Part shown: in pieces, positions 8,268 to 22,874 of the stretch
Position numbering within the stretch: position 1 is the stretch's first letter
How the letters are laid out: each line of letters opens with the position of its first letter
From: a virus
Strand: one strand, 5' to 3'
Virus record (IMG/VR): IMGVR_UViG_3300033156_001230
Span: 1 to 22,874 of that record
DNA: 22,874 nucleotides
Program-made: the position numbers and the translations under genes
Notes under the pieces: generated by a model
Told to the model about the DNA's origin: nothing
What the model saw: the letters and a program-made list of their open reading frames with translations, nothing else
Databases searched by the model: none

Positions 8268-8315
8268 CGTGCCACCTCCACCGACGCGAAGAGTTGTCGC
8301 CAACCGGCCAGGATC

Positions 8316-8381
8316 GTTTCCGGGTCGGCCAGTTCCTCGACTCGGGCCGTTTCCGGGTCGGCCAGTTCCTCGACTCGGGCC
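8316..8381. repeat. 33-bp perfect tandem duplication (in frame)
   Basis: Two identical 33-bp units encode ARVEELADPET twice near the C-terminus of the GT4. The frame is kept. Confidence 0.96.
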
Positions 8382-9346: not shown

Positions 9347-9354
9347 GATCATTG

Positions 9355-9403
9355 CAAATTGAAAATTGAAAATTGAAAATTGGAAATTGAAAATTGAAAA
9401 TTG
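9355..9403. repeat. Heptamer array, CAATTTT type, 5' of GT4
   Basis: On the minus strand about seven copies of CAATTTT (variants CAATTTC and CAATTTG) run up to the GT4 start codon, which lies within the CAATG end of the array. No Shine-Dalgarno site is visible. Confidence 0.95.
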
Positions 9404-9415
9404 CCGGTCTGCTAC

Positions 9416-9455
9416 CTTTCCACTCACCACTCACCACTCTCCACTCCCCACTTTC
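9416..9455. repeat. Heptamer array, GTGAGTG type, 3' of the Cys-rich gene
   Basis: On the minus strand GTGGGGA/GTGGAGA/GTGGTGA units follow the codons for GKW. They encode the last residues of the Cys-rich protein and provide its TGA stop. Confidence 0.92.
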
Positions 9456-9681
9456 CCGCCGGGCAATGTTCGGTCGCCATGCGGAGTTTGTTTCGCAGCG
9501 CCGTGCCGTCCGGCCGGCAACGACAGCCGCACAAGGTGCAGGTACTCCGCTGCGGGTCGAAATGCTCGCACGGCCGGCAAATGGTCTCGAAGATCCGGCG
9601 GACCTGCTCATCGCCGCGCTTGGGGCGGCCGGCCGCCATCCAACGCCGCATGGCCTTGCCGTATCGCAACAGTCTGATCAT
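9424..9681 (-). CDS. Cys-rich (zinc-finger-like) small protein, 85 aa
   Basis: The core has CRPC, then CTLCGCRC, and a final Cys in MATEHCPAGKW, spaced like a small zinc-binding knuckle. Comparable short proteins with a CGC-type cluster and a C-terminal NKL-MATE-CP-GKW phrase occur in phage tail/glycosylation regions, as I recall them. The role is unknown. The start at 9681 has no ribosome site because a heptamer array lies directly upstream. The C-terminal GVESGEW and the stop come from the downstream array, so the original C-terminus was probably GKW or close to it. Confidence 0.75.
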   Translation of the reverse strand: MIRLLRYGKAMRRWMAAGRPKRGDEQVRRIFETICRPCEHFDPQRSTCTLCGCRCRPDGTALRNKLRMATEHCPAGKWGVESGEW

Positions 9682-9684
9682 GTA

Positions 9685-9744
9685 CAGTAGTGGATAGTGG
9701 GTAGTGGGTAGTGGGTAGTGGATAGTGGATAGTGGGTAGTGGAT
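9685..9744. repeat. Heptamer array, GTGGATA/GTGGGTA type (plus strand)
   Basis: About eight units with period 7 fill the gap between the poly-Ser gene stop and the Cys-rich gene start. Read in the coding direction (CCACTAT/CCACTAC) the array has no stop codon in any frame. Confidence 0.95.
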
Positions 9745-9754
9745 AACCGATCGC

Positions 9755-11278
9755 TTACGCTCCCGATGAACTGCTCGATGATCCCGATGAACTGCTCGAT
9801 GATCCCGATGAACTGCTCGATGATCCCGACGAACCGCACGGAATGCACTCGACCCATTCCTCCTCGGTAACCTCCGTGCCCGGCGGCAGCGTGATGTCTT
9901 GCAGGCAGAACTCGATACAGCCGTCTTCGCAATGGAAGTTGGTCATCACCGTAATCGTCAGCGGCCCGGAAGAACTGCTCGACGAAGAACTGCTGGAAGA
10001 GGAACTGCTGGAAGAGGAACTGCTCGACGAAGAACTGCTCGACTCGGGTGGAAAGGCGATCGGGTACTCCACCGGAAAACACTCCGGCGGCAAGGAAGCC
10101 ACCAGTGTTTTGGGCCAGTAGCTTCCCTGGGAATCCTGTTCGAGCAGGAACCAACTCCAGTCATCCCAGGCGGTGGTTTCCCAGCCGGCGTTCGGTGGGA
10201 GACTGAGGTAATAGACCGGCGCGTCGTCGTACCAAGTCCGCAGCGTCTCGAAGAGGTAGTCCGCCACGTCGTTGATCTGCTGGGTGTTGTAGATCTCGCC
10301 GTCGCGTTCGCGGGCCGGCTGGGTGAGATAGACGGTGAGGTTCACCGCGCCTGAGCCGTTCCGCTGGATGATGTATCGCTGGCCGCTGGGCCACAGGTAG
10401 CGAGGTTGGGCCAGCGGCAAGGAGAAGGCCACCTGGCCGAGACGGCGGAGGTTGCCGCCGGTGGCATCATCCGGCCGGCCGACGATCCGCGGCCTTTGGT
10501 CGAATTGATTGGTGACCGACTCGCTGGCCTCGGCAGGCGTCTGGAGGTGATAGTACTCTCCGTCGAACGTGACGCGCTGTCCACAGCAGGCGGCCAGACC
10601 GTCGAGAACCAGGCCGGCGGGCAGGTGCCGAGTCCAGGCCAAGGCGTCCGGCGGTACTGGCGGTTCGACGAGCCCTTGGACGCGAGACGCGAAGGGCAGC
10701 GCGCCGACGATCTCCTGCCAGGTCTGCGGCTCGATCAGTTCCACCATCTGCCGCCCCTCCTGGAACCGCCGGTCCACCAGCACGGCCATCGCCAGGTCGG
10801 GCCGGATCGTCGGCAGGCATTTGAGGATCTGTAGCCGATAGGTCCGTTGCGTCGTGCCCTGCTGGCCGTTTTGGCCGGAGAATTCCCAAGTGACCTCTGT
10901 GTCCAGCGCGCTGCGGATCGCCTCGGGATCGGTCCAGATCAACGCCATGGCGAAGCGGCCGGCCCCGGTGGGAAACCAGAGGGAATTCGGCTTGAAGGCC
11001 GGCGGCCGGGTCTGCCAGGGCCAGACGGGAAAACCGGCCTGTTCATCCACGCGGTTGCACAGATAAATGCCCTCCTGGACCGGCTGGCCGGCCGAAGAGG
11101 AGAGGCGGCCCAATTCCCGCAACGGGCTCCGCGGCCGATGGACACCGGCCAGCAGGTAAGGGTCGGGCCCGAAGACCGGGGCAAGCTGCGACGGCAGCCA
11201 CCGCTGGAGATATTCCTGCAATCGAGCGTCCGGATCAGGCCAGTAGATCGGGATGTCGCGACCCAAAACCTTGGTCAT
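9755..11278 (-). CDS. Phage structural (tail/appendage) protein with long poly-serine C-terminus, 507 aa
   Basis: The start at 11278 (MTKVLGRDIPIYWPDP) has AAAGGA upstream; an ATG six codons earlier is less likely. The first roughly 390 residues are a mixed alpha/beta structural protein with no motif I can name. Then come 25 consecutive serines (codons at 9968-10042), a 40-residue block with four Cys (CEDGCIEFC, CIPC), and three SSSSSSG repeats at the end. All six serine codons are used in the tracts, which argues that serine content is selected and not just DNA slippage. It lies between tail genes and the glycosyltransferases, so the serines are candidate O-glycosylation sites. By position it should be a tail fibre, tip or appendage protein. 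Confidence 0.78.
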   Translation of the reverse strand: MTKVLGRDIPIYWPDPDARLQEYLQRWLPSQLAPVFGPDPYLLAGVHRPRSPLRELGRLSSSAGQPVQEGIYLCNRVDEQAGFPVWPWQTRPPAFKPNSLWFPTGAGRFAMALIWTDPEAIRSALDTEVTWEFSGQNGQQGTTQRTYRLQILKCLPTIRPDLAMAVLVDRRFQEGRQMVELIEPQTWQEIVGALPFASRVQGLVEPPVPPDALAWTRHLPAGLVLDGLAACCGQRVTFDGEYYHLQTPAEASESVTNQFDQRPRIVGRPDDATGGNLRRLGQVAFSLPLAQPRYLWPSGQRYIIQRNGSGAVNLTVYLTQPARERDGEIYNTQQINDVADYLFETLRTWYDDAPVYYLSLPPNAGWETTAWDDWSWFLLEQDSQGSYWPKTLVASLPPECFPVEYPIAFPPESSSSSSSSSSSSSSSSSSSSSSSSSGPLTITVMTNFHCEDGCIEFCLQDITLPPGTEVTEEEWVECIPCGSSGSSSSSSGSSSSSSGSSSSSSGA

Positions 11279-11295
11279 CCGCACGAATCCTTTCA

Positions 11296-11400
11296 AAGTG
11301 GATAGTGGATAGTGGATAGTGGATAGTGGGTAGTGGATAGTGGATAGTGGATAGTAGAACTACCCTTCACTCTTCACTCTCCACTAACCACTATCCACTG
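11296..11400. repeat. Inverted pair of heptamer arrays (GTGGATA then its complement)
   Basis: A GTGGATA array (about 11296-11355) is followed by a complementary CCACTAT-type array (about 11370-11400). The transcript could fold into a long hairpin between the two genes. The right arm supplies the TAG stop of the upstream gene. Confidence 0.92.
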
Positions 11401-11894
11401 CTACTGGCCAACTCCCAATCGAACGGCAGGCCGAACTCCAGCGTCAGGCCCCAGAGCAGCGTCTGGGGACCGCCCAGGCGCTGGAGGAGTTGCGGGCCGC
11501 TGGAGCGGATGCAGTAGACCAATTGCCGCTGCGCGACCTCCAGGTCCCAACCGACCAGCGCGGCCAGCACCTGGCGCTTCCGCTCGTAAAGCCCGCGGGA
11601 GGCATTCAGGAGGGTTTTTTCTGCCTCGTCGGCCCGGTCCAAGGCGCAGCGGACGTAGATAGTCACCGCGAAGGTCCAGGCCTCGGTGATGTTGCCGGGG
11701 AACTGCTCGGCGGGCTCGAAACGGCCTTCGCCCGGACTGACGGCCAGAAAATAGTCGCCGCCCCGCGGGACTTCTTCCAGGGCCAGCGGTTGCCAGGCCA
11801 AAAAGCATTGGTTGGCATCGAGGCCCAATTGCTCGCGGAGCCGGGCCAGGATGGCCGTCAAGAGTGCGATGGGGGTGGTGTCGGGTCGGTCCAT
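11391..11894 (-). CDS. Phage structural protein of unknown function, 167 aa
   Basis: It begins MDRPDTTPIALLTAILARLR, with an N-terminal helix, then a beta-rich middle (FAVTIYVRC) and LLWGLTLEFGLPFDWEL. The size and layout resemble small tail-completion or terminator-type proteins, but the position far downstream of the tail tube is unusual for one. A CCACTAC heptamer array runs directly to the ATG, leaving no ribosome site. The last residues (SSG) and the TAG come from the downstream array. Its reading frame is clean and it lies in the late gene series, so it is very likely real; the role is a guess. Confidence 0.78.
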   Translation of the reverse strand: MDRPDTTPIALLTAILARLREQLGLDANQCFLAWQPLALEEVPRGGDYFLAVSPGEGRFEPAEQFPGNITEAWTFAVTIYVRCALDRADEAEKTLLNASRGLYERKRQVLAALVGWDLEVAQRQLVYCIRSSGPQLLQRLGGPQTLLWGLTLEFGLPFDWELASSSG

Positions 11895-11996
11895 GGGTAG
11901 TGGATAGTGGTTAGTGGATAGTGGTTAGTGGATAGTGGGTAGTGGGTAGTGGTGAGTGGTGAGTGGTGAGTGATCTCAATTCACCATTCATCATTC
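11895..11996. repeat. Composite heptamer array (GAATGAY, CACTCAC, CCACTAN types)
   Basis: In coding direction the order is GAATGAT-type units after the stop of the 545-aa gene, then CACTCAC units, then ACTACCC/ACTATCC/ACTAACC units running into the ATG of the 167-aa gene. Confidence 0.93.
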
Positions 11997-11997
11997 G

Positions 11998-13635
11998 TCA
12001 TGACCCGATCACGCTCTCGGGGATTGTCGGCGAGTCGCTGGTCGGCAGCGTCAGGCCGTATTCGTGGAGTCGGAAGACGCGGTGCGTCCATTCGTGGACC
12101 TTGCCGGCCCGGTTGTTGGCGGGGGCAAGCGTCCAGTACTGGCCCGGCTCGGGCGTGCGATTCGGTCGCAGGCAGGCCAAGGCGGGCCCGCCCGTATAGA
12201 GCCGCGTGGCGGGGACCAACACCAGGTCGTCGATGTAGAGCACGCCCCCGTCGTTCAATGCGGTAGTCATCTCGATCCGCAGCCAAAGGGTGCCGGCGTC
12301 CTCCGCCCGGAAGAACATCGCACCGGAGGCCGCCTGGTGCGCAGTGTCGGAGAGCCCGGGCACGGAGACGCTCAGCGCGTTGTTCTCGTCGGCCGGACTG
12401 GTGGTGACGGCGCCGTCGATCCCGTCGAGCACGGCGAACTGCACCTCGCCGGCGGTAGCGGCGTCGCGTCGCAGCCAGACGTGCAGGATGTACGGCGTCT
12501 CGCCGGCGACCGTGACCGGGACGTAGAGGACCGGCTTGGTGCCGCCGGCGTCACCGATGATTTTGAGTGTGCGACCCCGAAAACTGCCCGCCTCGCCTTG
12601 CTGCGTGGTGGCGTGGGCGATGGCCGGGCTGCTGCCGCCGGTGAGCTTGTTGATCGAAGCAAGCTGCTGGATGTTCCCGCCCAGGCCGTGGAAGGTGACC
12701 GTGTGGGTGTAGTTCGGTGAGGTCCCGGTGGACTCCACGGTGACCTCGGCCAGGTCGCCGATCGCCCGCAGGGCCGATTGGACCGCCGATGCGCCGGCGT
12801 CGTAGGCGATCGGCGCGGTGCCCCACTGCCTGCCGTCCGGGTCGGTGTAGAGCAAGGCGTACCAGCCGCCGGTCGGGGTGCCGGAGATGGTGACCGTCTG
12901 CTCTTCGGGTTCGGTCAGCGCGACATGGGTGGGCGAATCGCCGGTGTGGACGATCCAGTAGTCCGGGATCACCCCGTCGCCGGACAGCCCGAAGTCGCCG
13001 TTGGGCACCAGACTGCTGTCGGGCCCGAGCATCGGCAGGTAGGTATCCAGGCCGCTGCCGGCCGGCCAGTCGTAGCGCAGGGCGTCGGCGCGGGGGCCGG
13101 AGAGGACCCGCACGCCGGCAGAATCGCCGAACATCTCGAGCGTTTCGGCCAATAGCATCGGCTGGACGTAGCCCCGATCGTCCCGGTCGGTCCCGGCGAT
13201 GGAGATCTGCGGGCCAAGATTCCCGCTGCCGGCCGAGGGCGTGCCGAGACTGGTGGTCGTCTCCAGGACCGTCTCGCCTTGTGCCTGCATCTGCTCGATG
13301 ACGTAGCCCCAGGCCTCTTCCAGATCGCCGGCCCGGCCGGGCATCTCGCGACGGACCAACTCGAGGGTCAGGCGTTCGGCCGCCTGGCGGACCGCCGGGG
13401 CCAGCGAGTCGGAACCGCCCTGCCAGGCGAAGGTCGCGCTGGGAAGACCTCGCAGGGCCTGGTCGATCGCCAACTGGTCGGAAACGGCGTCGGCCATCGA
13501 CATCACCCCGGCCACCGCGCCGGGGACCGTACTCCCGTGGGCCACCAGCAGCAAATCCAAGCTGTAGTAGACCTTGCCCAACAGGTCGAACAGCCCCGGA
13601 TCGTTCGGGGCACCGCTGTAGAGGTTTAGTGGCAT
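11998..13635 (-). CDS. Phage tail/receptor-binding protein with carbohydrate-binding-like domains, 545 aa
   Basis: Residues 1-110 are helical (LAIDQALRGLP and so on), probably the virion-anchoring part. At about 215-235 LVPNGDFGLSGDGVIPDYW opens a jelly-roll-like domain that closes near 480 with LWLRIEMTTALNDGGVLYID, the pattern of carbohydrate-binding-like modules. Within it, APIAYDAGASAVQSALRAIG followed by VESTG and HTVTFHGLGG matches a domain phrase common in planctomycete surface proteins (PI-YNASA-AVQ-AL, then VT-TG, VTF-G). By position and domain type it may bind host glycans. The start has only a weak GAG site. Confidence 0.8.
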   Translation of the reverse strand: MPLNLYSGAPNDPGLFDLLGKVYYSLDLLLVAHGSTVPGAVAGVMSMADAVSDQLAIDQALRGLPSATFAWQGGSDSLAPAVRQAAERLTLELVRREMPGRAGDLEEAWGYVIEQMQAQGETVLETTTSLGTPSAGSGNLGPQISIAGTDRDDRGYVQPMLLAETLEMFGDSAGVRVLSGPRADALRYDWPAGSGLDTYLPMLGPDSSLVPNGDFGLSGDGVIPDYWIVHTGDSPTHVALTEPEEQTVTISGTPTGGWYALLYTDPDGRQWGTAPIAYDAGASAVQSALRAIGDLAEVTVESTGTSPNYTHTVTFHGLGGNIQQLASINKLTGGSSPAIAHATTQQGEAGSFRGRTLKIIGDAGGTKPVLYVPVTVAGETPYILHVWLRRDAATAGEVQFAVLDGIDGAVTTSPADENNALSVSVPGLSDTAHQAASGAMFFRAEDAGTLWLRIEMTTALNDGGVLYIDDLVLVPATRLYTGGPALACLRPNRTPEPGQYWTLAPANNRAGKVHEWTHRVFRLHEYGLTLPTSDSPTIPESVIGS

Positions 13636-13650
13636 GATCTCGCTCGTTTA

Positions 13651-13707
13651 GAGTGGTGAGTGGTGAGTGGTGGGTGGTGAGTGGTGAGTGTTCCCCATTC
13701 GTCATTC
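13651..13707. repeat. Composite heptamer array (GAATGAC and CACTCAC types)
   Basis: After the stop of the 624-aa gene the coding strand has GAATGACGAATGG and then six CACTCAC/CACCCAC units. It is the same order as at 11895-11996 and 17052-17090. Confidence 0.92.
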
Positions 13708-15582
13708 TCACGGCGTCAGGTCCTTGTCGTAGAGTTTGCTGCGGTCCACCAGCCGGTCGTTTTCCTTGAATTTGACGGTCGGCAGGTACTCGATCTTCAA
13801 CTGTTCGTCCCGGGCCAACGCCCGATCCAGCCCGTACTCCATGCGTGCCTCGACCGCGAACACCTTCCGCTCTCCGTCGGCGGCCAGGGTCGGCGCGGTG
13901 AAATCCTGATCGAAGCGGATCAGGTGCAGGTGGACTTCGCCGCGGCTGGTTTTCCAAGTCACCTGCGATTTGGGCTCGGGGAGTTCCGGCCAGGAGCCGA
14001 TCCGCTCGATCTCCCAGCGGATGGTCACCCGGGCCTGGGGGCCTTGGGCCAGTTCGACCCAATGGGTGGTCGGTGACAAGGAACCGGCCGCGGCGGATTG
14101 GTCGGCGGCGCCCTGGTAAGTGTACGGGACCTTGCCGCTCTTATCGACGCTGGTCTTGCCCAATGGCAGACCCACGCGCAACGTGTCCTCGTGGTAACGG
14201 GTCTCGGCGGCGGCGTGGGTGTAGAGGATTTTGCGGGCCTGCTCACTGATTTCGCCGGGCGAGACCTCGGGGAGCTCATCCACCTCGATGCCTTCGACGG
14301 TCGTGCCGCCGGTCCGCTCCTTTTCCTTTTCCTTTTGCGGTAATTGCTGCGGTAAGCCAGTCACCTGGTAGCCGTGGCGGTCACCGCAGGGGTCTTGCAG
14401 GTAGCAGGCCAGGGCCATGACGACCGCCGGCCGGCGGACATCGCCGTGGGAGTCGTAGCCCCAGACGGCCGGCATTGGACTCTTGTGCACCTCATACGGT
14501 GGCATGTCCTGCGCCCACGCGCGGGTGGAAAAATTCAGCGGCCGTCCAAATGTGTTCCGCAGCATCAAGAATCGCTGCTCTTCCACGTCGAAAGTCCGCT
14601 GTAGTCGCAGACGCATCTCGATGGTATTGCGATCGCCGATGTGGTCGATCATCGCGATCTGGTGGATTGCGCAGTCCTGGCTACGGAGCTGAAACTCCGA
14701 CCAGCCCATGCGGTCCAATACAATCTGGATCGCGCGAGTCATCATCATTTTCTTGGACGAATGCGGCGCGCCGTCCATGCGGATAGTGAAATCCGTAACC
14801 CAGTTGTAGCCGTTCTTGCTGACCTCGGTGTGCGTTACGTTCATCCGCGCCGCCGGTGAAGGCGCGGCCGTGTGCGTCTGCCGATCGACCACCTCGTAGT
14901 CGCAGTCCAGCCCATTGGCGGTGACGGCGAACTTCATCGAGTGGCGGCGGAATCCGTGTTCCAGCGGCGGGACGATCAGCGCCCGGGCGGTCTCGGCGTT
15001 GACCGTCGGATGGGAGAGGCGCAGCCGACCGGTGATTGTGCGAGTGGTGTAAAAACGCTCGTCAAGCGACTCCTGGATGCTCCAGCGGTTGGAGATCACC
15101 AAACCGCCACCGTGTTGCACCGCCAGGTCGGATGCGCAATCGGGCAGTACCGCCAGCTCGATTTCCCAGACGACGTGTACCGTGGCGCCGACGATCCGGT
15201 CGAATCGCAACAGCTTCGGTTTCGGACCGTTGTCGGCGTCGCGCGCGCCATCGCCGGCTGTTTCGTCGGCCGGTTCCACTTCCAATACGGTTACACCGCC
15301 GATGGCGATCTTGAACGATTTCCGCGGCGCGGTGAGCTTCTCCCGGATCTCGGTAAACAGCCACGACGCGCTGGTGATATTACCCCCGCGCTCCGGAGCG
15401 ATCCAGCAGATCGATCCCTCCAGATCGTCCCTCGACTCAGCGGCGTGCGCCACACCCGCGGCCGTGATCCGGTGGCGAGTGAACAACAGGTCGGTACCCG
15501 ATTGGTCGTACTGGACCTCCTGGTCCCAGGACCGGATCAGGCAGTTGTGAAAGCAAATCCCGTTGTAGGTGATTGTCGTCAT
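13708..15582 (-). CDS. Large phage tail/baseplate-like structural protein, 624 aa
   Basis: It starts by ATGA overlap with the upstream tape-measure-like gene. It is beta-rich, with repeated long strands (SFKIAIGGVTVLEVEP, then VVWEIELAVLP) that suggest several domains. A Lys/Glu linker (QKEKEKERTGG) at about residues 412-425 divides an N-terminal 410-residue part from a C-terminal part (VTWKTSRGEVHLHLIRFDQ). Directly downstream of the tape-measure position one expects distal tail or baseplate hub proteins. No motif allows a firmer name. Confidence 0.75.
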   Translation of the reverse strand: MTTITYNGICFHNCLIRSWDQEVQYDQSGTDLLFTRHRITAAGVAHAAESRDDLEGSICWIAPERGGNITSASWLFTEIREKLTAPRKSFKIAIGGVTVLEVEPADETAGDGARDADNGPKPKLLRFDRIVGATVHVVWEIELAVLPDCASDLAVQHGGGLVISNRWSIQESLDERFYTTRTITGRLRLSHPTVNAETARALIVPPLEHGFRRHSMKFAVTANGLDCDYEVVDRQTHTAAPSPAARMNVTHTEVSKNGYNWVTDFTIRMDGAPHSSKKMMMTRAIQIVLDRMGWSEFQLRSQDCAIHQIAMIDHIGDRNTIEMRLRLQRTFDVEEQRFLMLRNTFGRPLNFSTRAWAQDMPPYEVHKSPMPAVWGYDSHGDVRRPAVVMALACYLQDPCGDRHGYQVTGLPQQLPQKEKEKERTGGTTVEGIEVDELPEVSPGEISEQARKILYTHAAAETRYHEDTLRVGLPLGKTSVDKSGKVPYTYQGAADQSAAAGSLSPTTHWVELAQGPQARVTIRWEIERIGSWPELPEPKSQVTWKTSRGEVHLHLIRFDQDFTAPTLAADGERKVFAVEARMEYGLDRALARDEQLKIEYLPTVKFKENDRLVDRSKLYDKDLTP

Positions 15583-16424
15583 ATGTTGTTTGGCCGCTTA
15601 ACCCACGGCTCCTCATCTTTCTTGCGGACTTTGCTGGCCGCGCCTATTTTCCAACGGCCGAAAGCCATGTCATTCAAGAAATCGTCCAGCGCAGTGTCCT
15701 TTGGTGCTTCAGGTCCGCCGGGAATCCACTGATTAAGGAATCTCGCACCTTGAGTTAGCCAATTGGTCAACCACTCAGCGACGACATTCTTCAGATTCAG
15801 CCAAAATGCTCGAAGCTCGACCGTCTCTCGCGCCAGTGCCGCTTGGGACCGGAGAAGATTTCTTGCACTGTTCCGAGTCTCGCGCGCTACTTCCCGGTTT
15901 GCGAGCATTCGCGTGACCTCGAGCTGTGTGGCAGCCGCCACCGCTCCACCATATTCGGCAAGCCGCAGGTTGGTTGCGGTGACACTTTTTGCGAAGGCAT
16001 TGGCCGCCTTTGCTGCCATTGCGGCACCCACGGCGAAGCCGAGAACTCCTGCGACGATCGGATGACGCATTATCATGCGGCCGAGTCTCGCCACCATTCT
16101 TGCCGCTCTCCTTGGCGGCGTGATTGGCCGGCGACCCTTCTTTTTCTTGTCCGCTTCCGCCGCCGGCCACGGCCGCGGTCCCTCGCGGGGCACGGGCACG
16201 GCTGATTGCGAGATGGTCTGCTCGAGTTTGTGGAGCGCCTCGGTCAAGGTCTCCGCGGCCTCGGTGGATGGTGCCGTGGGAGTCAGCCCCGGGCCGGTCC
16301 TTTTGGCTAGCGGCTCATCGCGCTTCCCACTCTCTTGCGGCGGGCGGCGCATCACGTTGGAGGCCGTCGCTGCCGCCACCGAGGCCTGGACCCACTCGCT
16401 CATCATGTCGCTGAGTTGCGCCAT
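15579..16424 (-). CDS. Short tape-measure-like tail protein, 281 aa
   Basis: It lies directly after the frameshifted tail chaperone gene, the usual place of the tape measure protein. The N-terminal 100 residues are Pro/Ala/Thr-rich and flexible. Residues about 120-145 (HPIVAGVLGFAVGAAMAA) are hydrophobic. Residues 145-225 are long amphipathic helices (ANREVARETRNSARNLLRSQ), as in tape measures. At 281 residues it is far shorter than most; at about 1.5 angstroms per residue it would give a tail near 40 nm. It could instead be a minor tail protein. The start at 16424 lies in the second copy of a diverged 41-bp duplication. Confidence 0.65.
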   Translation of the reverse strand: MAQLSDMMSEWVQASVAAATASNVMRRPPQESGKRDEPLAKRTGPGLTPTAPSTEAAETLTEALHKLEQTISQSAVPVPREGPRPWPAAEADKKKKGRRPITPPRRAARMVARLGRMIMRHPIVAGVLGFAVGAAMAAKAANAFAKSVTATNLRLAEYGGAVAAATQLEVTRMLANREVARETRNSARNLLRSQAALARETVELRAFWLNLKNVVAEWLTNWLTQGARFLNQWIPGGPEAPKDTALDDFLNDMAFGRWKIGAASKVRKKDEEPWVKRPNNI

Positions 16425-16484
16425 GACCGGGACTTCTCCATCAAAACGTCGCCGATTCGTGCCATGACCGGGATGTCTCCATCA
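16403..16484. repeat. Diverged 41-bp tandem duplication across a stop/start junction
   Basis: The units 16444-16484 and 16403-16443 match at 32 of 41 positions by my alignment. Each carries GGAGA, TCCCGGTC and ATGGC. The copy at 16424 is the start of the tape-measure-like gene (MAQLSDMM); the other would read MARIGDVL. The stop of the frameshifted chaperone lies at the border. Confidence 0.8.
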
Positions 16485-17051
16485 TCGAGCGGGTCTGCTG
16501 GACTCGGGCCTTGTGCAGTTCGTAGGCCGCGCCGGCCGATTCCTCGTCAGTGGTGATCGCCTCCCAATACTCCCGCGGGATTTCCTCCGAAAGGGCCAAC
16601 CGCACCGCCAGAATCATCGGCCAGCTTCGCCTTCGCTGGATCCGCTGGGCGTGGAAGTAGAGTCCGGCCCAGAACTCGTACCGCCGGACTTCCCGGCCGG
16701 CGAGTCGCCAGAGGACCGCAGGACCGAGATCAGCAAAGGCATCGGCCCAGAATCGCGTTTTTTTTTGAGCCCTTCCAGGTAGGCCATGTACTGCGTGAAC
16801 AAATCCAGCAGGTCCCAGGTGGTCAGCCCGCGGCCGGTCTGCGGATCGAAAGGCTCGGCCTCGAAGGCCTCGGTCAGCCGCCGGCGGACCTGCGAGAGTC
16901 CCGGCTCCTGGCCCGCCTCGGCCTGGGCCACCATCTCGGGCCAATCCTCGTCGATCGCCAACCGGCTCCAGATCAGCAGCGGATCGGCCCAGCGAGTCCG
17001 CCGGCCGTCATAGTATTGCCAGATCAGTCGTTTGCGATTGCGGAAGAACAT
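16441..17051 (-). CDS. Tail assembly chaperone, -1 frameshift fusion product (203 aa)
   Basis: Reading starts at 17051 in frame 0 for 98 codons (MFFRNRKRLIWQYYDGRR to YLEGLKKK) and then shifts -1 within A9 into a second frame. That frame is open for 105 more codons (TRFWADAFADLG to SRSWHESATF). Both halves have well-formed protein character, and the second has no start of its own. A chaperone pair made by -1 frameshifting just before the tape measure gene is a hallmark of tailed phages (lambda G and GT). Here the order tail tube, chaperone, tape measure fits. The C-terminal half has aromatic helices (YEFWAGLYFHAQRIQRRR). Confidence 0.72.
16614..17051 (-). CDS. Tail assembly chaperone, frame-0 product (145 aa)
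   Basis: This is the unshifted product. After the A9 run it continues for 47 residues of low-complexity Ser/Gly/Pro (SAGDS-type composition) to a stop at 16614. I chose ATG 17051; ATG 17084 is in frame but would add MNHPLTTHHYP, which is encoded by the heptamer array. The first 95 residues contain WADPLLIWSRLAIDEDWPEM and a helical RRRLTEAFEAEPFDP, shared with the fusion. No ribosome site is visible at either start. Confidence 0.65.
   Translation of the reverse strand: MFFRNRKRLIWQYYDGRRTRWADPLLIWSRLAIDEDWPEMVAQAEAGQEPGLSQVRRRLTEAFEAEPFDPQTGRGLTTWDLLDLFTQYMAYLEGLKKKRDSGPMPLLISVLRSSGDSPAGKSGGTSSGPDSTSTPSGSSEGEAGR
16758..16766 (-). other. Slippery A9 run for -1 frameshifting
   Basis: Nine A residues on the coding strand cover codons AAA AAA AAA (Lys 96-98) of the chaperone. 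A slip of one base back gives ACG CGA in the downstream open frame. Transcript slippage by RNA polymerase on A9 would have the same effect. Confidence 0.7.
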
Positions 17052-17090
17052 GGGGTAGTGGTGAGTGGTGAGTGGGTGATTCATTCATCG
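17052..17090. repeat. Composite heptamer array (GAATGAA and CACTCAC types)
   Basis: In coding direction GATGAATGAATCACC follows the tail tube stop, then CACTCACC units and ACTACCCC abut the ATG at 17051. Confidence 0.9.
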
Positions 17091-17600
17091 TTACTCGGGA
17101 ACCTCGTCGTTGTACAATATCCCGTTCTTCGCGTGGGCCTCGAAGACCGCCAACAGCCGGGTGAAGCGGCTGCCTTTGTTCACCTCGATCGCTTCCCGCA
17201 AGAAGGCCCGCGGAAAATTCCAGGGGGTGGGAACGCCGTTCTCTTCTACCGCCGACCTGATCAGCAACCGGAAGGACTTCTCGTATTGCGCGGAATCGCT
17301 GAATATGAAGGTGCCCGGGGTGCCCACCTGGCCGGCCGTCAGGCCGTTGAGCCGCTGCAACTTGTCGGCCACCGTGAGATCGTACTTGGTCAGTTCCAGG
17401 CGGATCACCGCGATCTCGCCCAGGTACTGGACGTTGGCCGGCGGGCCGGCCTCGCCGCCCATGTCGTCGCTGGGCACGTCCAAGAAACGCGACTCCAGGC
17501 GGATCTCCACCCCGTCGCGAGTGTAACCGAGCAATTCCACCTCAGTGCTATCCCCTACGTACACCTGGGCTGCACCGAAGACATGAGTTTGTATCGCCAT
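17091..17600 (-). CDS. Major tail tube protein, 169 aa
   Basis: MAIQTHVFGAAQVYVG opens a beta-rich protein of the usual tail tube size. GYTRDGVEIRLESRFLDVP, then VQYLGEIAVIRLEL and FSDSAQYEKSFRLLI, give the alternating strands expected for the tube fold. It stands directly upstream of the chaperone and tape-measure-like genes and has a strong AAAGGAG site, in keeping with high expression of a major virion protein. The heptamer array upstream stops short of this site. Assignment rests on position, size and strand pattern. Confidence 0.72.
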   Translation of the reverse strand: MAIQTHVFGAAQVYVGDSTEVELLGYTRDGVEIRLESRFLDVPSDDMGGEAGPPANVQYLGEIAVIRLELTKYDLTVADKLQRLNGLTAGQVGTPGTFIFSDSAQYEKSFRLLIRSAVEENGVPTPWNFPRAFLREAIEVNKGSRFTRLLAVFEAHAKNGILYNDEVPE

Positions 17601-17613
17601 CGCGATCTCCTTT

Positions 17614-17670
17614 ACTCACCACTCCCCACTCACCACTCCCCACTCTCCACTCCCCACTCCCCACTCCCCA
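17614..17670. repeat. Heptamer array (GTGGGGA/GTGGTGA in coding direction)
   Basis: About eight period-7 units lie between the stop of the connector gene and the ribosome site of the tail tube gene. The TGA stop of the connector gene lies at its edge. Confidence 0.93.
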
Positions 17671-17671
17671 G

Positions 17672-18175
17672 TCACCTCCCCAACGGCAATCGTCCGCCGC
17701 GTTGCGGATAGTAGCGCCGCATCCGGTCGGGCAATAGGTTCAGTCGTTGGTAATCGACCGCCCGCGGGCCGTCGATCGTCGGCAACCCGGCGTCGCGCTG
17801 ATCGTCGAGCCCGAAGAGCCGCTCGCCGTTGCGAAGCCGGTCGAGATACTCTTCGCACCGCTTGCGGACCGCCTCGACCTGCTCGTGTCCGTATTTCTCC
17901 AGCCGGGCCGACATCAGCCGGACCATGGCCAGCTCGCAGGTCAGATCGACAAGCAGGGCCAGGCTGTTGCCCGTCAGGGCGGCCAGGTCCTCGGGCGTGT
18001 AGATCCCGCCCACCTGCACGGCCGCGTCGACGTAGCCGCTGGCCGCGTCCAACGCGGCGGCCACGCGGGGGTTGCCGATCGCCACATCGCCCGGCTCGCC
18101 CGTGTCGCTGGCCAGGTCCTTCAACACCCGCTCGTCGTAACGAGCCACCAGGTCGCTCGGATTCGCGTAGGCCAT
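17672..18175 (-). CDS. Head-tail connector protein (Mu gp36 / DUF1320-like), 167 aa
   Basis: MAYANPSDLVARYDERVLKD closely follows the Y-tP-DLi-RyGe-el pattern of Mu gp36-like head-tail joining proteins. It is followed by AALDAASGYVDAAVQ (helix with a YVDA phrase) and DLTCELAMVRLM, a helix typical of this family. The family links the portal to the tail. The C-terminus has RAVDYQRLNLLPDRMRRYYP. It is placed between capsid and tail tube genes, as expected. The start has no ribosome site because an array of CCACTAA units runs to the ATG. Confidence 0.78.
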   Translation of the reverse strand: MAYANPSDLVARYDERVLKDLASDTGEPGDVAIGNPRVAAALDAASGYVDAAVQVGGIYTPEDLAALTGNSLALLVDLTCELAMVRLMSARLEKYGHEQVEAVRKRCEEYLDRLRNGERLFGLDDQRDAGLPTIDGPRAVDYQRLNLLPDRMRRYYPQRGGRLPLGR

Positions 18176-18299
18176 GGGATTAGTGGTTAGTGGTTAGTGG
18201 TTAGTGCTTAGTGGGGAGTGAGTAGTGAAGAGTGAACGGTGAAGAGTAGTCCCACTATCCACTATCCACTATCCACTATCCACTATTCACTATCCACTG
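18176..18299. repeat. Inverted pair of heptamer arrays between capsid and connector genes
   Basis: In coding direction about seven GTGGATA-type units follow the capsid gene stop. A mixed middle and then CACTAAC units precede the connector ATG. The two arms are complementary enough to form a long RNA hairpin. Confidence 0.93.
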
Positions 18300-19349
18300 T
18301 CATTGGCACTTGATGAACCGGACGGTCGCGGCCGGGGCGACCAGCTTGGCGCAGAGGTTCTCCACCACGCGGCCCTTCACGCGGCGGTTATCCTCGTCGC
18401 GCCGCGTCTCCACGGTCATCTCCTCGTAGGCGAAGACCACCACCGAGGAGAAATTGGGCACGCCGGCCACGCCCAGCAGGCCGCCCACCCGCGAAAGCAT
18501 GTAGGCACCGGTCGTGGTGCTTGTCCCGCTGGGAAGGATCTGGCTGACGCTCTTGGTCGCTCCCTTCTTCGTGGTCACCTTCCGCGTGGGCTCGACCACC
18601 AGCGGGAAGCCGAAGAGCCGATCGGGCAGCCCGTACATCACGTTTCGCCCGGGCAGTTCGCCGCGGATCTGGGCCAGGGCCTCGGGCGAACCCTTGATGT
18701 AATCGACCAGTTCCTGGCTGACCGAAATGGCCTTGGCCAGGTTGGAGTTGATCACCAGCATCAGGTCCTTGGCCGGATCGACCGCAGCCAGCGTATCGTC
18801 CAAGATCACCTCGGCCGCCTGTTCCAGCGACTTCTGGATGGTCTTCTTGGTGGTGGTCGATCCGGACCACTTGTCCGAGTCGATGGAGTTGACATCGATC
18901 ACGTGGTTGCTGTCCAGGCTGGCGCCTTCCAGCGCGGTGATGACCAACTGCGTGCGGGCGGTCATCGCCTGGCGGGCCTTGATCGAGGCGTGCTGGGCCA
19001 CGATGTCCCAGGTGGCGTTCTCCACAGTGATGTCGCCCAGCATGAAGCTGTAGGCGTAGCGAAAACACTCGAAGGGCTTGAACTCGAAGGACTCGATCCC
19101 CTCGACGCCCTCGGGTGCCGGCTGACCGTCAGGCCAGACGAAATTCTTCAGGTCCGAATCGACGATCCGGCCCGCCTCCTCGCTGGTCATCTCCAGGTAG
19201 TAGCCGGCCGTCTTGGGCACCTTCACCACCTGGGCGTAGCGGTTGACCGCAAAATCCTTGATGTTTCGCGCGAAGTCCACGGTCAGCTTGCCGCTGGCCT
19301 CGTGGCTGCGGACGAACACGTTTTGGCTGGATGGGTAAACGGCAGGCAT
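18300..19349 (-). CDS. Major capsid protein, probably HK97 fold, 349 aa
   Basis: This 349-residue protein follows the protease/scaffold and decoration genes and precedes the connector, the position of the major capsid protein. It has an N-terminal arm, FKPFECFRYAYSFMLGD and then helical ASIKARQAMTARTQLVI (the spine-helix region), and DLMLVINSNLAKAIS with LFGFPLVVEP, phrases typical of HK97-like shells. The C-terminal VVVFAYEEMTVETRRDEDN fits the P-domain strands. A near-perfect GGAGGAT ribosome site precedes the ATG, suiting the most abundant virion protein. The fold is inferred, not shown. Confidence 0.85.
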   Translation of the reverse strand: MPAVYPSSQNVFVRSHEASGKLTVDFARNIKDFAVNRYAQVVKVPKTAGYYLEMTSEEAGRIVDSDLKNFVWPDGQPAPEGVEGIESFEFKPFECFRYAYSFMLGDITVENATWDIVAQHASIKARQAMTARTQLVITALEGASLDSNHVIDVNSIDSDKWSGSTTTKKTIQKSLEQAAEVILDDTLAAVDPAKDLMLVINSNLAKAISVSQELVDYIKGSPEALAQIRGELPGRNVMYGLPDRLFGFPLVVEPTRKVTTKKGATKSVSQILPSGTSTTTGAYMLSRVGGLLGVAGVPNFSSVVVFAYEEMTVETRRDEDNRRVKGRVVENLCAKLVAPAATVRFIKCQ

Positions 19350-19370
19350 TGGTTATCCTCCATGATTGAT

Positions 19371-19387
19371 TTCAGTGTTCAGTGTTC
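19371..19387. repeat. Short heptamer run TTCAGTG (2.4 units)
   Basis: Two and a half TTCAGTG units lie upstream of the capsid gene ribosome site. This is a further period-7 sequence with a different unit from its neighbours. Confidence 0.7.
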
Positions 19388-19411
19388 GGATTGGTGGGCG
19401 TTTCCACCCTG

Positions 19412-19834
19412 CTACGAGCTGCTCAGCACGGGCCAGGCCACGCCGAAGCGGACCTGCACCATGATCTTTTCGTCCTGGCCGCCGTTTTGCAGGGCGATCG
19501 CGCCGAAGTGGGCGTTGCCCGTCCAATCGACGGATACCCCCTTGCCGCCGGTGCCGGCGGTGAGCAGATCGCCGGCGCTGACCGCCTCGCCGAGTTGCAA
19601 CAGGCACACGTCCCCGTCGGTGAAGACGTGGACCGGCTGGCCGGAGACAGCCGCCTTGGGATCGCCACTGACAAGATCGCTCAGCGGCGGCTGGTTGCTG
19701 CCCTCCTGGGAGACGCCCATCAGGGGGTTGGCCTCATCGGTGGCCTGTTCCACCATAAAATTGCCGGTGAGGCAAACGAACCGACAGGGATAGATATCCC
19801 CGTTGGCCACGAGTTGAGGGACTACGTTGGGCAT
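19412..19834 (-). CDS. Capsid decoration protein (DUF2190-like), 140 aa
   Basis: It is a small beta-rich protein between scaffold and capsid genes. It shows the pattern of DUF2190-type decoration proteins: a DVCLLQLGEAVSAGDLLTAG stretch, then GVSVDWTGNAHFGAIAL and a closing VQVRFGVAWPVL. Such proteins bind the outside of the shell and stabilise it. It has a clear AAAGGAG site and compact spacing to the protease/scaffold gene (16 bp). Confidence 0.72.
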   Translation of the reverse strand: MPNVVPQLVANGDIYPCRFVCLTGNFMVEQATDEANPLMGVSQEGSNQPPLSDLVSGDPKAAVSGQPVHVFTDGDVCLLQLGEAVSAGDLLTAGTGGKGVSVDWTGNAHFGAIALQNGGQDEKIMVQVRFGVAWPVLSSS

Positions 19835-19850
19835 GGGAAACTCCTTTGAG

Positions 19851-20561
19851 TTAGTGGTTATCCCCTCCGTTCTTCAGCCGCTGGAGTTCGGCCTCATAAT
19901 CGACCGACTCGCCGTTGAGCGCCTTCCGCTCGCAGACGGCCAACGCCCGGTCGGCCAACTCCCGTTGGTACTTTTCGCGATCGAGTTCCACCGGGGCGTG
20001 CACGGCGGCCGGCAGACCCCGATCCAGGGGCAGCCGCTGGTAGTTCTCGCGGATCACCGTTAGGTGGTCGTCGAACTGCTCGGGCGTCATCCGCTCGGCC
20101 GCGCACCGCTTGGTCTCCTTTTCCAGGTCGAAGGCGTACTGGTTCCGCAGGTCGGCGAGCCTGCTGTAGCGCTCGGCGTTGATGCGGTGGTTCCGCTCGG
20201 TCCGGAGTTCCGCCTGGAGCCGCTCGAAATCGCCTTGCAGCCGGCTGTAGCGCTCGACCATCTCGGACTCGCTCTTTTGGTGCTTCTCGCGGGCGGCCGC
20301 GGCGGCGAACATTTTCCGTTGCTCCTCGGTCAGCGGCTTGCCGTCCACCTCGCCATCCTCCAGGATTTGCCGGGCCTTGCCCGGATCGATCTTGTCGGAC
20401 GGCTGCTGGTAAGGTTCGGGTTCCGGCTCCGTCGGCTCCGTGGCGCCGTTCTTGTCGTCGGCGTCGGATGGGGTGGCCATCCGCTCCTTGATCCACTGGA
20501 GCCAATCTAGCCCGTCCAGCGCCTCGATCAACTGCTGGATGTCCTCTTGCGATAGTGCCAT
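19851..20561 (-). CDS. Nested scaffold protein, internal start, 236 aa
   Basis: ATG at codon 200 of the protease gene (MALSQEDIQQLIEALDGLDW) is preceded by AAAGGAAG six bases upstream, much stronger than the site of the full gene. The product is an acidic, helical, Glu/Gln/Arg-rich scaffold that would be made in excess over the protease. Mu I/Z and lambda C/Nu3 use the same nested design, with the scaffold sharing the protease C-terminus. Confidence 0.65.
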   Translation of the reverse strand: MALSQEDIQQLIEALDGLDWLQWIKERMATPSDADDKNGATEPTEPEPEPYQQPSDKIDPGKARQILEDGEVDGKPLTEEQRKMFAAAAAREKHQKSESEMVERYSRLQGDFERLQAELRTERNHRINAERYSRLADLRNQYAFDLEKETKRCAAERMTPEQFDDHLTVIRENYQRLPLDRGLPAAVHAPVELDREKYQRELADRALAVCERKALNGESVDYEAELQRLKNGGDNH

Positions 20562-21158
20562 GGCATCTTCCTTTCGGTTTCTGATTGGTTTCGAGTCGGT
20601 TTCCTCGGGAACGAACACACTGGCGGCGGCCGGATGCGCAGCCGCGTATTTTTCGATGACCTGCCCGTCGCGCCGGGCGGAGTAGAGCAGACTCAGGCCC
20701 ATGTCCAGCCGTGGCGGTTCGGCGCCCAGCAGGGCGATCGGGTCGATCACCATGCGGTCGTAGCTCTTCTCCAGCCACAGTTCCGGGCTGCGGCGCGGGT
20801 ACTTCTTGACCCGCTCGATGTCCTCGCGGTAGATGTGCAGGTCGGCCAGGACCGCGTATTTCTCTCCCACCTTGCCGAGGCGGAAAGGGCCGGCGAAACC
20901 GACCAGCGGCGGGTCGCCCTTCTGCTCGCCGGGTCTGGGCGTATGGCCCAAGGTGACCGCCGCGTAGTCGCCCGTGGAGTCGATCCGCTGGTTGCACCGC
21001 CGGGCGATCGCCGCCAATTCCTCCCGGCCGAAGCGAAGCCGGCGACCGTCGCGGGCCGTGGTCTGGTGTTCCACCAGCACCGGCACATCGGCGATGGTGA
21101 CGAACCGATCGGCCGGAAAAGGGTCGCCCTGGCGGGATGTCTGGACGGCAGTAACCAT
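19851..21158 (-). CDS. Capsid maturation protease with C-terminal scaffold (Mu I-like), 435 aa
   Basis: The N-terminal 180 residues resemble Mu-type prophage I proteins: VTLGHTP (H72), LVGFAGPFRLG, then HIYREDIERVKKYPRRSPEL, where the conserved R-SPE phrase (S124) lies in the protease core. The C-terminal 235 residues are acidic and then heptad-rich (RLQGDFERLQAELRTERNHR), as in scaffold proteins. An internal ATG with its own ribosome site begins the scaffold alone. The start at 21158 follows an ACAAATC/ATAAATC heptamer array with no ribosome site. It would process capsid and scaffold during head assembly. Confidence 0.78.
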   Translation of the reverse strand: MVTAVQTSRQGDPFPADRFVTIADVPVLVEHQTTARDGRRLRFGREELAAIARRCNQRIDSTGDYAAVTLGHTPRPGEQKGDPPLVGFAGPFRLGKVGEKYAVLADLHIYREDIERVKKYPRRSPELWLEKSYDRMVIDPIALLGAEPPRLDMGLSLLYSARRDGQVIEKYAAAHPAAASVFVPEETDSKPIRNRKEDAMALSQEDIQQLIEALDGLDWLQWIKERMATPSDADDKNGATEPTEPEPEPYQQPSDKIDPGKARQILEDGEVDGKPLTEEQRKMFAAAAAREKHQKSESEMVERYSRLQGDFERLQAELRTERNHRINAERYSRLADLRNQYAFDLEKETKRCAAERMTPEQFDDHLTVIRENYQRLPLDRGLPAAVHAPVELDREKYQRELADRALAVCERKALNGESVDYEAELQRLKNGGDNH

Positions 21159-21162
21159 GTTG

Positions 21163-21201
21163 GATTTATGATTTGTGATTTATGATTTGTGATTTGTGAT
21201 T
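21163..21201. repeat. Heptamer array, ACAAATC/ATAAATC type
   Basis: In coding direction five period-7 units of CACAAAT/CATAAAT type run from the end of the small membrane gene to four bases before the ATG of the protease gene. They encode the last residues (NHKSQIINHKS) of the small protein. Confidence 0.92.
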
Positions 21202-21375
21202 GAGCGACTGCTGGAGCAGCTCCACACGTCGCAGCCGCTGTTCGTACTCGTCGAGCTTCTCGGTCAGCTTGGAAACCATCTTCTCCAGCATCGACAGCTT
21301 GGCCCACATGATCCCGGCAACCATTGCCAACCCGGTGACGTGAATTGCGATCGTGACGATGGCTTCCGTCGGCAT
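21166..21375 (-). CDS. Small membrane protein with coiled coil (holin/spanin-like candidate), 69 aa
   Basis: Residues 4-24 (AIVTIAIHVTGLAMVAGIMW) form one membrane segment. They are followed by a heptad-rich helix (LSMLEKMVSKLTEKLDEYEQ). This simple build is seen in small phage lysis or membrane proteins. AGGA lies 8 nt before the ATG. The last 11 residues are read from a heptamer array, so the original protein probably ended near LLQQS. It lies between the secreted protease and the capsid protease genes. The role is unproven. Confidence 0.7.
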   Translation of the reverse strand: MPTEAIVTIAIHVTGLAMVAGIMWAKLSMLEKMVSKLTEKLDEYEQRLRRVELLQQSLNHKSQIINHKS

Positions 21376-21389
21376 GGTTCGATCCTAAA

Positions 21390-21462
21390 ACGAATGACGA
21401 ATTGGAACCACTAACCACTATCCACTATCCACTACCCACTACCCACTACCCACTACCCACCG
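21390..21462. repeat. Composite heptamer array, reversed orientation
   Basis: On the plus strand ACGAATGACGAATTGG is followed by CCACTAA, CCACTAT and CCACTAC units, so the coding strand reads GTGGGTA. This is the reverse of the orientation at 17052 and 11895. It supplies VGSG and the TAG stop of the upstream gene. Confidence 0.93.
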
Positions 21463-21747
21463 CACCGCCGTTGAGCTTCTTGACCGTCGCTTCGGCGGTC
21501 GCCTCGGCCATCCGCTCTTTGGCCCGGGCCTCCTCGGGCGTGTCCTCGTCGTTCTTCCACCAATCGACGATGGCCGCCTTGGCGGACGTGTAGGCCGTAG
21601 GCCCGACACCGCGGGCGGCGGCCCGAATAATCATCCGGCCGGCCCCGTAACCGACCGCACCCAGGCCCAACAACGGTGCGACCATCTTCCAGAGGATGTC
21701 GGCCAGCGTGGCCCAGAGGTCTCCGCTGGTTCCCAACGTGTCGGCGG

Positions 21748-21779
21748 CGGCGGAAAAGTCGCCCGGCGGAAAAGTCGCC
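21748..21779. repeat. 16-bp perfect tandem duplication (frame-breaking)
   Basis: The unit CGGCGGAAAAGTCGCC occurs twice without a gap, identical over all 16 bases, inside the protease gene. Confidence 0.96.
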
Positions 21780-22041
21780 GCCGACCGCCTCGCCGGCCGC
21801 CTCGCTTAGCGCGGGAGCCACCTGGCGGACCTTCTCTTCCGCCTCGGCCTGGGCCTGTCGCCGAGTCTCGGCCTCCAGGTAGCCGGCCACCGCCTCTGAA
21901 AGGTCTCGCTGGGCGTCGGCCAGACCCTTCAGCGGCTCGGCCAGTGGGGCCGTGTCGATCGTCACGTTCGGCGCCGGGGGCGCGGCGATCTCGATCTTCG
22001 GCAGCGGCGCCTGGGTCGAAGGCGGAGGCGGCGGAGGGGAC

Positions 22042-22107
22042 GGCAGGGTGGGCCAGGCCCCGCCGCCCCCAGGAGGCAGGGTGGGCCAGGCCCCGCCGCC
22101 CCCAGGA
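22042..22107. repeat. 33-bp perfect tandem duplication (in frame)
   Basis: Two identical 33-bp units encode PGGGGAWPTLP twice in the linker after the protease domain. Confidence 0.96.
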
Positions 22108-22428
22108 GCCGGACTCGGGGACGGTTGCGATTGGTTGCGGCGGTAGGGCAACAGATACCAACGGGAAGGATCTTGACAACTCCCGCCCGGACAGCTCGCG
22201 CCGGGCCGCCACTGGGTCGATCCGCGCGTGGCGGCCAACGCCGCCCGGGCCGTTTCGCTCTGCCGGGGATCGCCGAAGGCCGCATAGACGCCCTGGACGC
22301 TCGAGGCGATGCCGAGCGGATCGCCATCTTCCATTCGCGCGGAGACCACGCCCACGATGTGGCGACCGCCCGGGTCCAGCAGGGCCGAGCCGCTGCGGCC
22401 GTCGGCCGGCGGCGGGACGAAGTAGAGC

Positions 22429-22452
22429 CGCGTGCCCGAGCGCGTGCCCGAG
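22429..22452. repeat. 12-bp perfect tandem duplication (in frame)
   Basis: The unit CGCGTGCCCGAG occurs twice and encodes SGTRSGTR in the protease domain before the catalytic Ser. Confidence 0.93.
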
Positions 22453-22874
22453 TAGCCGCGGGCGTGGCCCTGGAAGGCGGTCGGCCAGGCCCCGCGGGCA
22501 CAACCGGCCGAGGTGATCGTTTCTCCCGAGCGGAGCACGTAAGTGGGCGAGGCCAGCGGGACCGTTTTGGGCAGCACGCCGCCGAACTGGTTTTGGGGGA
22601 CGGCCACCAGCGCTACGTCATGCGAGTCGTTACGGCTCGCCACACGGCCTCTGAGGGCACGGGACTGGTGGCCGGCGCGCCAGAACTCGCAGGTCACCTC
22701 GGAGGCCGAGCGGACCACGTGGGCGGCCGTCAGGACCCAGACCTTGCCGCTGGAGATCGCGAAGCAACAGCCGCTGCCGGTCGAGCCGTCCGCGCAGCGA
22801 ATGCGACAGGTGGCTTCGATGGCGTCGCTGAGCGAGGCCCGCACCGGGGCGGCCAGAAGGGCCAGCAGGAGGAT

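Follow-up and report, generated by a model that had tools for sequence, protein, structure and literature searches.

In most bacterial genomes, according to Mrazek et al. (2007), no class of longer repeats is as common as that of heptanucleotides, and the 7-nt step was guessed to reflect the contact length of a polymerase, both points as related in PMC4679880. Repeats of TAACTGA in Beggiatoaceae, Cyanobacteria, and Bacteroidetes show 7-nt insertions and deletions and go along with a missing Shine-Dalgarno sequence (PMC4679880), those of GGGAATC or GGGGAYT in Xanthomonas and Nostoc form inverted pairs placed between aligned genes (PMC4692102), and heptamers are base-paired in a Nostoc intron (PMC3488679). 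Although bacterial heptamer repeats have been on record for decades, there is no agreement on what causes them or what they do. Here we describe tandem 7-bp repeats, or period-7 arrays, in IMG/VR virus record IMGVR_UViG_3300033156_001230, a phage sequence of 22,874 bp that was analysed at its full length and is referred to as the window. Heptamer repeats being known already in many bacteria, what is new is their regular carriage at late-gene junctions in at least three viruses, each of which has its own 7-letter word, often in the form of hairpins.

Insofar as they are described in PMC4679880, the bacterial repeats of Mrazek et al. resemble the window arrays in their period, their many different units, and their species-specific abundance; they were described for bacterial genomes, whereas the window arrays lie in a phage. 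Similarly, TAACTGA repeats are intergenic, often abut start codons without a Shine-Dalgarno sequence, change in 7-nt steps, and occur among mixed heptamers, but they mostly run forward before starts, with 2-6 copies in BOGUAY, and inverted pairs are almost absent. The TAACTGA unit is not among the window units, which are AGTGGNN, ATTGAAA, and GATTTRT. GGGAATC and GGGGAYT repeats share the location between co-directional genes near stop codons, and inverted pairs are common in Xanthomonas; by contrast, theirs is a G-quadruplex unit with four copies preferred, and the window units are mostly without GGG tracts. An earlier note on this DNA had named the short tandemly repeated repetitive (STRR) heptamers of cyanobacteria as the nearest analogue, which points to the right neighbourhood: STRR and Nostoc intron heptamers are degenerate tandem heptamers that pair into a hairpin and vary in copy number, although they occur in intron RNA or scattered in chromosomes, and with other units, rather than at phage late-gene junctions. 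PMC4679880 and PMC4692102 make no mention of phages, and our search of the open-access literature for heptamer repeats in phage genomes found none, which is not proof of absence.

Tandem Repeats Finder (TRF) and an independent period-7 scan of the whole window agreed on 13 arrays of 2.7-10.7 copies each between positions 9351 and 21460 (Table 1), compared with a mean of 0.005 arrays at the same score in 200 dinucleotide-preserving shuffles. Arrays of other short periods were absent, apart from those at multiples of 7 and from longer repeats that run in frame within coding sequence. Every array lies at or across a gene junction, and 519 of the 601 array bp are predicted spacer. Between 9.3 and 21.5 kb the spacer amounts to 1,062 bp, of which these 519 bp are array; predicted spacer further to the left adds up to 1,986 bp and contains no array. 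As tandem heptanucleotide repeats of several copies, above chance and concentrated in spacer, the window arrays belong to the heptamer simple-sequence repeats (LSSR/STRR class) of bacteria, here in a phage, and the claims of the earlier note that they occupy most junctions of the late operon and are absent left of 9.3 kb stand. Its further claim, that ATGA gene overlaps are free of arrays, holds within the window; in relatives, however, several of the array junctions are 4-bp overlaps. Two arrays (21163-21201 and 9420-9452) enter the 3' ends of small open reading frames (ORFs), whose final residues they would encode (such as ...NHKSQIINHKS).

The units are less diverse than the earlier note supposed. 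Eleven of the 13 arrays consist of AGTGGNN or its complement NNCCACT, in both orientations, and only ATTGAAA (9351) and GATTTRT (21163) form separate families. Two further units that had been listed, TTCAGTG and GAATGAY, are present but short and weak alone, the first with 2.4 copies; those of GAATGAY, with 2-3 copies near 12 kb and near 13.7 kb, are not independent arrays. At the junction of the 11998 and 11391 genes, the minus strand reads GAATGAT, GAATGGT, GAATTGA, GATCACT, CACCACT, ACCCACT, ATCCACT, AACCACT, and the 7-bp register is kept without a break all the way from close to the stop codon up to the start codon. We observed the same in-register passage from GAATGAY to the AGTGGNN family at the junction of the 13708 and 11998 genes, and in one other viral contig TCAGTTA units grade into AGTGGNN-type units. 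Across all loci collected, unlike neighbouring arrays were in phase in 57 of 221 cases, with 31.6 expected (p ~5e-6; inverted pairs counted). Units within a genome also cluster, with a mean nearest distance of 0.22-0.27 against 0.83-1.15 for letter-shuffled units, into 7-9 unrelated clusters per genome, all of period 7. Unit words can thus drift by in-register point substitutions while the period is inherited, so that the inference of a 7-bp ruler from unlike units does not follow for the window. Nested hairpins in the bacterial genome G014 (L301, 18159-18300 and 19306-19433; L318, 13296-13410) have outer GGAAGGC arms around an inner AATGACG-type array, and there, too, outer and inner units grade in register.

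At two window junctions (11297/11365 and 18252/18180), the predicted fold pairs one arm with a complementary one, and such pairing is general in the related sets. The hairpin after the capsid gene has a predicted RNA folding energy of -51 kcal/mol (z -6.7); a z below -3 was reached at only two window junctions, and most arrays are single and unpaired. Among IMG/VR contigs, neighbouring arrays were inverted in 78 cases versus direct in 25, and in a multi-phylum bacterial set of 120 loci 23 of 53 neighbours were inverted and 15 direct. The capsid junction has a strong hairpin not only in the window but also in L236 (a contig with a relative of the window capsid gene) and in the array-free relatives L224, L226, L230, L233, and L237; that of L224 is followed by a terminator-like T run, whereas the window hairpin is without one. 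Because five array-free relatives have a hairpin at the same place, that of the window is probably an ordinary intercistronic hairpin, which may act in mRNA 3'-end protection or attenuation; of all array junctions, this is where a role is most plausible. The unpaired arrays are probably neutral filler.

The window phage is not the only virus with such a layout. IMGVR_UViG_3300044824_000335 (L156+L134+L215) is an unrelated tailed phage, a siphovirus, with tape measure, tail assembly, adaptor, and neck proteins according to PHROGs. Its 40 arrays, built of TCAGTRA/ACTGRYY units, occupy 19 of the 21 same-direction junctions, and all 16 foldable junctions are hairpins with z below -3. The median distance from stop codon to array is 5 nt in this virus and 6 nt in G014, where the array starts at most 10 nt past the stop codon in 20 of 29 cases. 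That arrays lie close behind the stop codon but farther from the next start needs no explanation beyond a constraint on the start region.

A third array-bearing virus came from the 19 viral contigs with a relative of the window capsid gene. At the threshold used, no period-7 array was found in the closest of these relatives (79, 65, 62, and 53% identity) or in most others; L235 has one strong short array, and L236 has at least 14 arrays of unit GAGCNGG and near complements. Arrays have thus been gained or lost within this phage group, either by a gain that postdates the divergence from its closest relatives or by a loss in the latter. Array junctions in the window measure 39-124 bp, and the homologous spacers in relatives are mostly of -4 to about 30 bp, so that arrays have opened junctions that are otherwise tight or overlapping. 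The exception is the capsid junction, where about a third of the relatives have a long spacer.

In the 37-kb contig L236/G520, the hairpin core GGGAGGAAATCCCCCTGCCCCGTG occurs five times, near-identical and in one orientation, at 6750, 14413, 16027, 17806, and 24660; four copies lie at late-gene junctions and the 6750 copy inside a called gene, and four of the five are exact over the 21-bp query. Five copies in the same orientation mean that copying within the phage has occurred. An origin of this core from the host was considered and rejected, with 0 copies in six GAGC-bearing genomes against four exact ones in the phage. The earlier note had proposed comparing array lengths among related phages, and this comparison, which rests on related viral contigs as the window has no close array-bearing relative, gave differences of 7, 7, 21, and 49 bp, that is, changes by whole units in four of four cases.

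Matches to AGTGGNN come, among those listed, from Chloroflexota, Planctomycetota, Bacteroidota, Acidobacteriota, Cyanobacteria, Verrucomicrobiota, and others. In one planctomycete family, 8 of the 119 genomes contain capsid relatives, presumably as prophages, and for this reason the host of the window phage is probably of that group; phage-host comparisons were made with related bacteria. In the same family, AGTGGNN occurs in 40 of the 119 genomes and the L236 unit GAGCNGG in 6. The 8 genomes with capsid relatives have no arrays of either unit genome-wide, and 333 kb sampled from these prophage-bearing genomes contained no period-7 array; the tracking of array-free hosts by array-free capsid relatives is weak (p ~0.03).

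Array-bearing bacteria show the same restriction to one period. G015, G014, and G006 have 1.0 to 2.1 period-7 arrays per 10 kb. There were 35 such arrays in G015 and 31 in G014, compared with at most 3 for any other period of 4-20 except 14; below 14, no other period reaches threshold in G014 and none exceeds 3 in G015. Arrays are intergenic in 43 of 60 cases (G014) and 28 of 44 (G015), and inverted pairs are frequent, with stem lengths that in some reach 30 to 50 bp. Placement counts in bacteria and viruses rest on approximate gene calls by a simple codon-usage gene finder. With regard to a scarcity between divergent genes, as in the Xanthomonas and Nostoc type, arrays by these calls occupy 27 of 122 tandem versus 1 of 31 divergent junctions in G014 and 13 of 122 versus 5 of 37 in G015.

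We consider it probable that the arrays result from in-register growth and copying of 7-bp units in spacers, that they were gained in array-bearing hosts, and that some act as intercistronic hairpins. The unit families and the layout of the arrays are shared with bacterial genomes of the planctomycete family, in keeping with such an origin. Within non-coding spacer, growth would proceed through slippage of 7-bp units during replication, and dispersal between spacers by recombination or template switching. Arrays would be tolerated in spacer, where constraint is limited to the region around the following gene's start. Complementary arrays that flank a short loop form a strong hairpin straight after the stop codon.

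Several observations weigh against this explanation. Arrays occupy 8/15, 10/20, and 17/19 junctions in three phage late operons versus 45/271 bacterial tandem junctions, an excess due in part to selection, as the phages were chosen for having arrays and the bacteria for having the unit somewhere; a higher density in phages is not predicted by neutral inheritance from the host. The earlier note, to which such arrays looked unusual in a phage late operon, had proposed this comparison of phage and host junctions; made here with related bacteria, it gave a phage density above that of the bacterial operons examined. The 7-9 unrelated period-7 families per genome go beyond what common descent alone would give, and it is from related bacteria that a match of units with the phage's own host is presumed. 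Arrays are absent from L392, a portal-bearing prophage contig, although the genome around it bears them. Portal genes were found only twice in array-bearing genomes, the second contig being just 3.4 kb long, with an inverted pair. In L393 (G005 contig 268, Acidobacteriaceae), an inverted heptamer pair (1559-1590/1676-1707) lies beside a phage portal gene.

A tenable but unlikely alternative is that the arrays are selected regulatory elements, in which heptamer hairpins behind stop codons set the ratios of late proteins, protect mRNA segments, or mask the next start, period 7 being a way of building or tuning them. The siphovirus, with its near-complete occupation of junctions, its uniformly strong folds, and its short distance from the stop codon, argues for such a role, as do the five copies of one hairpin in one orientation in L236, the capsid-junction hairpin that is kept while its sequence is replaced, and a phage array density higher than in the bacteria sampled. 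However, most window arrays are unpaired, with only two junctions folding at z below -3, the orientation of single arrays is mixed, and most relatives do without arrays. In a comparison of G-U pairs, the antisense strand folded better at 23 junctions and the sense strand at 11; because the sense strand folds no better, selection at the RNA level is not visible. A bolder form of the idea, to which we give rather little credence, is that unrelated phages have repeatedly turned late junctions into heptamer hairpins, with the word free and the 7-bp step and post-stop place kept, as a tunable intercistronic element whose strength is set by whole units. The presence of arrays at most late junctions, structural genes included, argues against repeats for phase variation.

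Similarly doubtful is a sequence-independent 7-bp ruler, that is, a host or phage enzyme that adds or copies any 7-bp unit, an idea close to that of polymerase contact. The near-exclusive period 7 across unrelated unit clusters within each genome would be accounted for, and it is consistent with a ruler that related phages bear unrelated units and that species of one family have many arrays or none. Against it, the units in a genome are far more alike than letter-shuffled units, in-register drift allows the period to be inherited, and no factor has been identified. The earlier note had favoured a mechanism measuring 7 bp over the spread of one sequence. The strict period was confirmed, and related phages independently carry different units, but the exclusion of spread was not supported: a single main family, the clustering of units, their in-register grading, and the five-copy hairpin of L236 are all compatible with spread, and a ruler is not needed for the window because a shared period can be inherited.

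Candidate host factors were compared between 43 array-bearing and 76 array-free genomes of the planctomycete family, with relatedness uncorrected. Loss of SbcCD, which would permit palindromes, and loss of mismatch repair were rejected: sbcD was present in 14/43 array-bearing and 30/76 array-free genomes and mutS1 in 39/43 and 69/76, with no association in either case. Repetitive extragenic palindromic (REP) sequences and bacterial interspersed mosaic elements (BIMEs), which go with REP-associated tyrosine transposases (RAYTs), are dispersed intercistronic hairpins downstream of stop codons. The arrays are like them as dispersed hairpins 3' of stop codons, except that here the arms are tandem heptamers. 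It is nevertheless very unlikely that the arrays are REP- or REPIN-like elements moved by a host RAYT (Y1) transposase. Such elements are dispersed and placed between genes, Y1_Tnp (PF01797) was found in 37/43 array-bearing versus 28/76 array-free genomes (odds ratio 10.6, p 1.4e-7), and its copy number correlates with array abundance (rho 0.58). But Y1_Tnp genes are not flanked by arrays (one within 600 bp in 1/40), and array density near them is 0.17 versus 0.97 per 10 kb. The gene is missing from 5 of 25 strongly positive genomes, and a control transposase, DDE_Tnp_1, was also associated (odds ratio 4.2, p 0.005; phylogeny not controlled). Unlike REP/REPIN elements, the arrays here showed no conserved element sequence across genomes. 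Given a genome-level association and no local linkage, we do not claim a transposase mechanism. An assembly artefact, conceivable in that short repeats are difficult to assemble, is extremely improbable: parts of the siphovirus recovered in seven further metagenome contigs (eight contigs from eight metagenomes) have identical array lengths, arrays are found in isolate genomes, and units vary within arrays, unlike in an artefactual expansion.

Small phages with arrays at up to 19 of 21 junctions, beside array-free relatives, are compact test objects that allow one and the same junction to be followed for loss of the array, change of its unit, and length. Within one bacterial family, a comparison of species with and without arrays could serve to look for what causes the 7-bp step. 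If the hairpins are functional, they would represent a simple, length-tunable control of late gene expression.

Table 1. Period-7 arrays and neighbouring genes of the window
Feature	Coordinates	Strand	Remarks
(ATTGAAA)x7.6	9351..9403		junction of 9424 ORF and 8593 gene
(CCACTCA)x4.7	9420..9452		covers stop end of ORF 9424-9681
(TAGTGGR)x8	9688..9742		junction of 9755 gene and 9424 ORF; ends 6 nt ahead of start codon
(AGTGGAT)x8.4	11297..11355		junction of 11391 and 9755 genes; one arm of inverted pair
(CTTCACT/CCACTAW)x5	11365..11399		second arm of inverted pair with 11297..11355
Composite array	11898..12001		called core 11898-11972; whole junction of 11998 and 11391 genes
(GAGTGGT)x5.7	13651..13708		called core 13651-13690; in-register GAATGAC-type units by stop codon of 13708 gene
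(AGTGGTG)x2.7	17057..17075		junction of 17091 and 16614 genes
(ACTCCCC/ACTCACC)x8.1	17614..17670		junction of gp36-like and 17091 genes
(TTAGTGG)x5	18180..18213		3' arm, in mRNA, of hairpin after capsid gene
(CCACTAT)x6.7	18252..18298		5' arm of capsid hairpin; begins 1 nt past capsid stop codon
(TTCAGTG)x2.4	19371..19387		before capsid gene; under period-scan threshold
(GATTTRT)x5.6	21163..21201		covers 3' end of ORF 21166-21375
(CCACTAC)x7.9	21406..21460		junction of trypsin-like protease gene and ORF 21166
Tail protein	11998..13635	-	phrog_10909 major tail and phrog_2839 tail sheath
Mu gp36-like head-tail adaptor	17672..18175	-	adjoins capsid gene
Major capsid protein	18300..19349	-	HK97 fold predicted; marker used to find relatives
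Head protein	19412..19834	-	phrog_673, annotated head scaffolding; near capsid gene
Protein conserved upstream of capsid gene in relatives	19851..21158	-	
Trypsin-like peptidase domain protein	21453..22844	-	

An AlphaFold model (pLDDT 75) of the 18300-19349 product resembles many HK97-fold capsids, and by this predicted structure the gene encodes a capsid protein. INPHARED phage records contained no relative of the window capsid, and no close relatives of the 13708 tail-region protein turned up when searched for. The conserved protein upstream of the capsid gene is likely the head maturation protease, judging from its position. In the C-terminal part of the trypsin-like ORF (region 21446-21844), an overlapping ORF in another frame (21446-21736) is more protein-like, indicating the possibility of a frameshift or a wrong frame. 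The 9755-11278 protein is serine-rich and of low complexity near its C-terminal end, owing to 15- and 21-bp tandem repeats. Perfect or near-perfect tandem duplications of 37, 33, and 41 bp, unrelated to the heptamers, lie at 2069-2147, 8315-8381, and 16407-16484. A tyrosine integrase gene (3226-4137) adjoins that of an HTH_17 (excisionase-like) protein (4579-4794), which fits a temperate phage.

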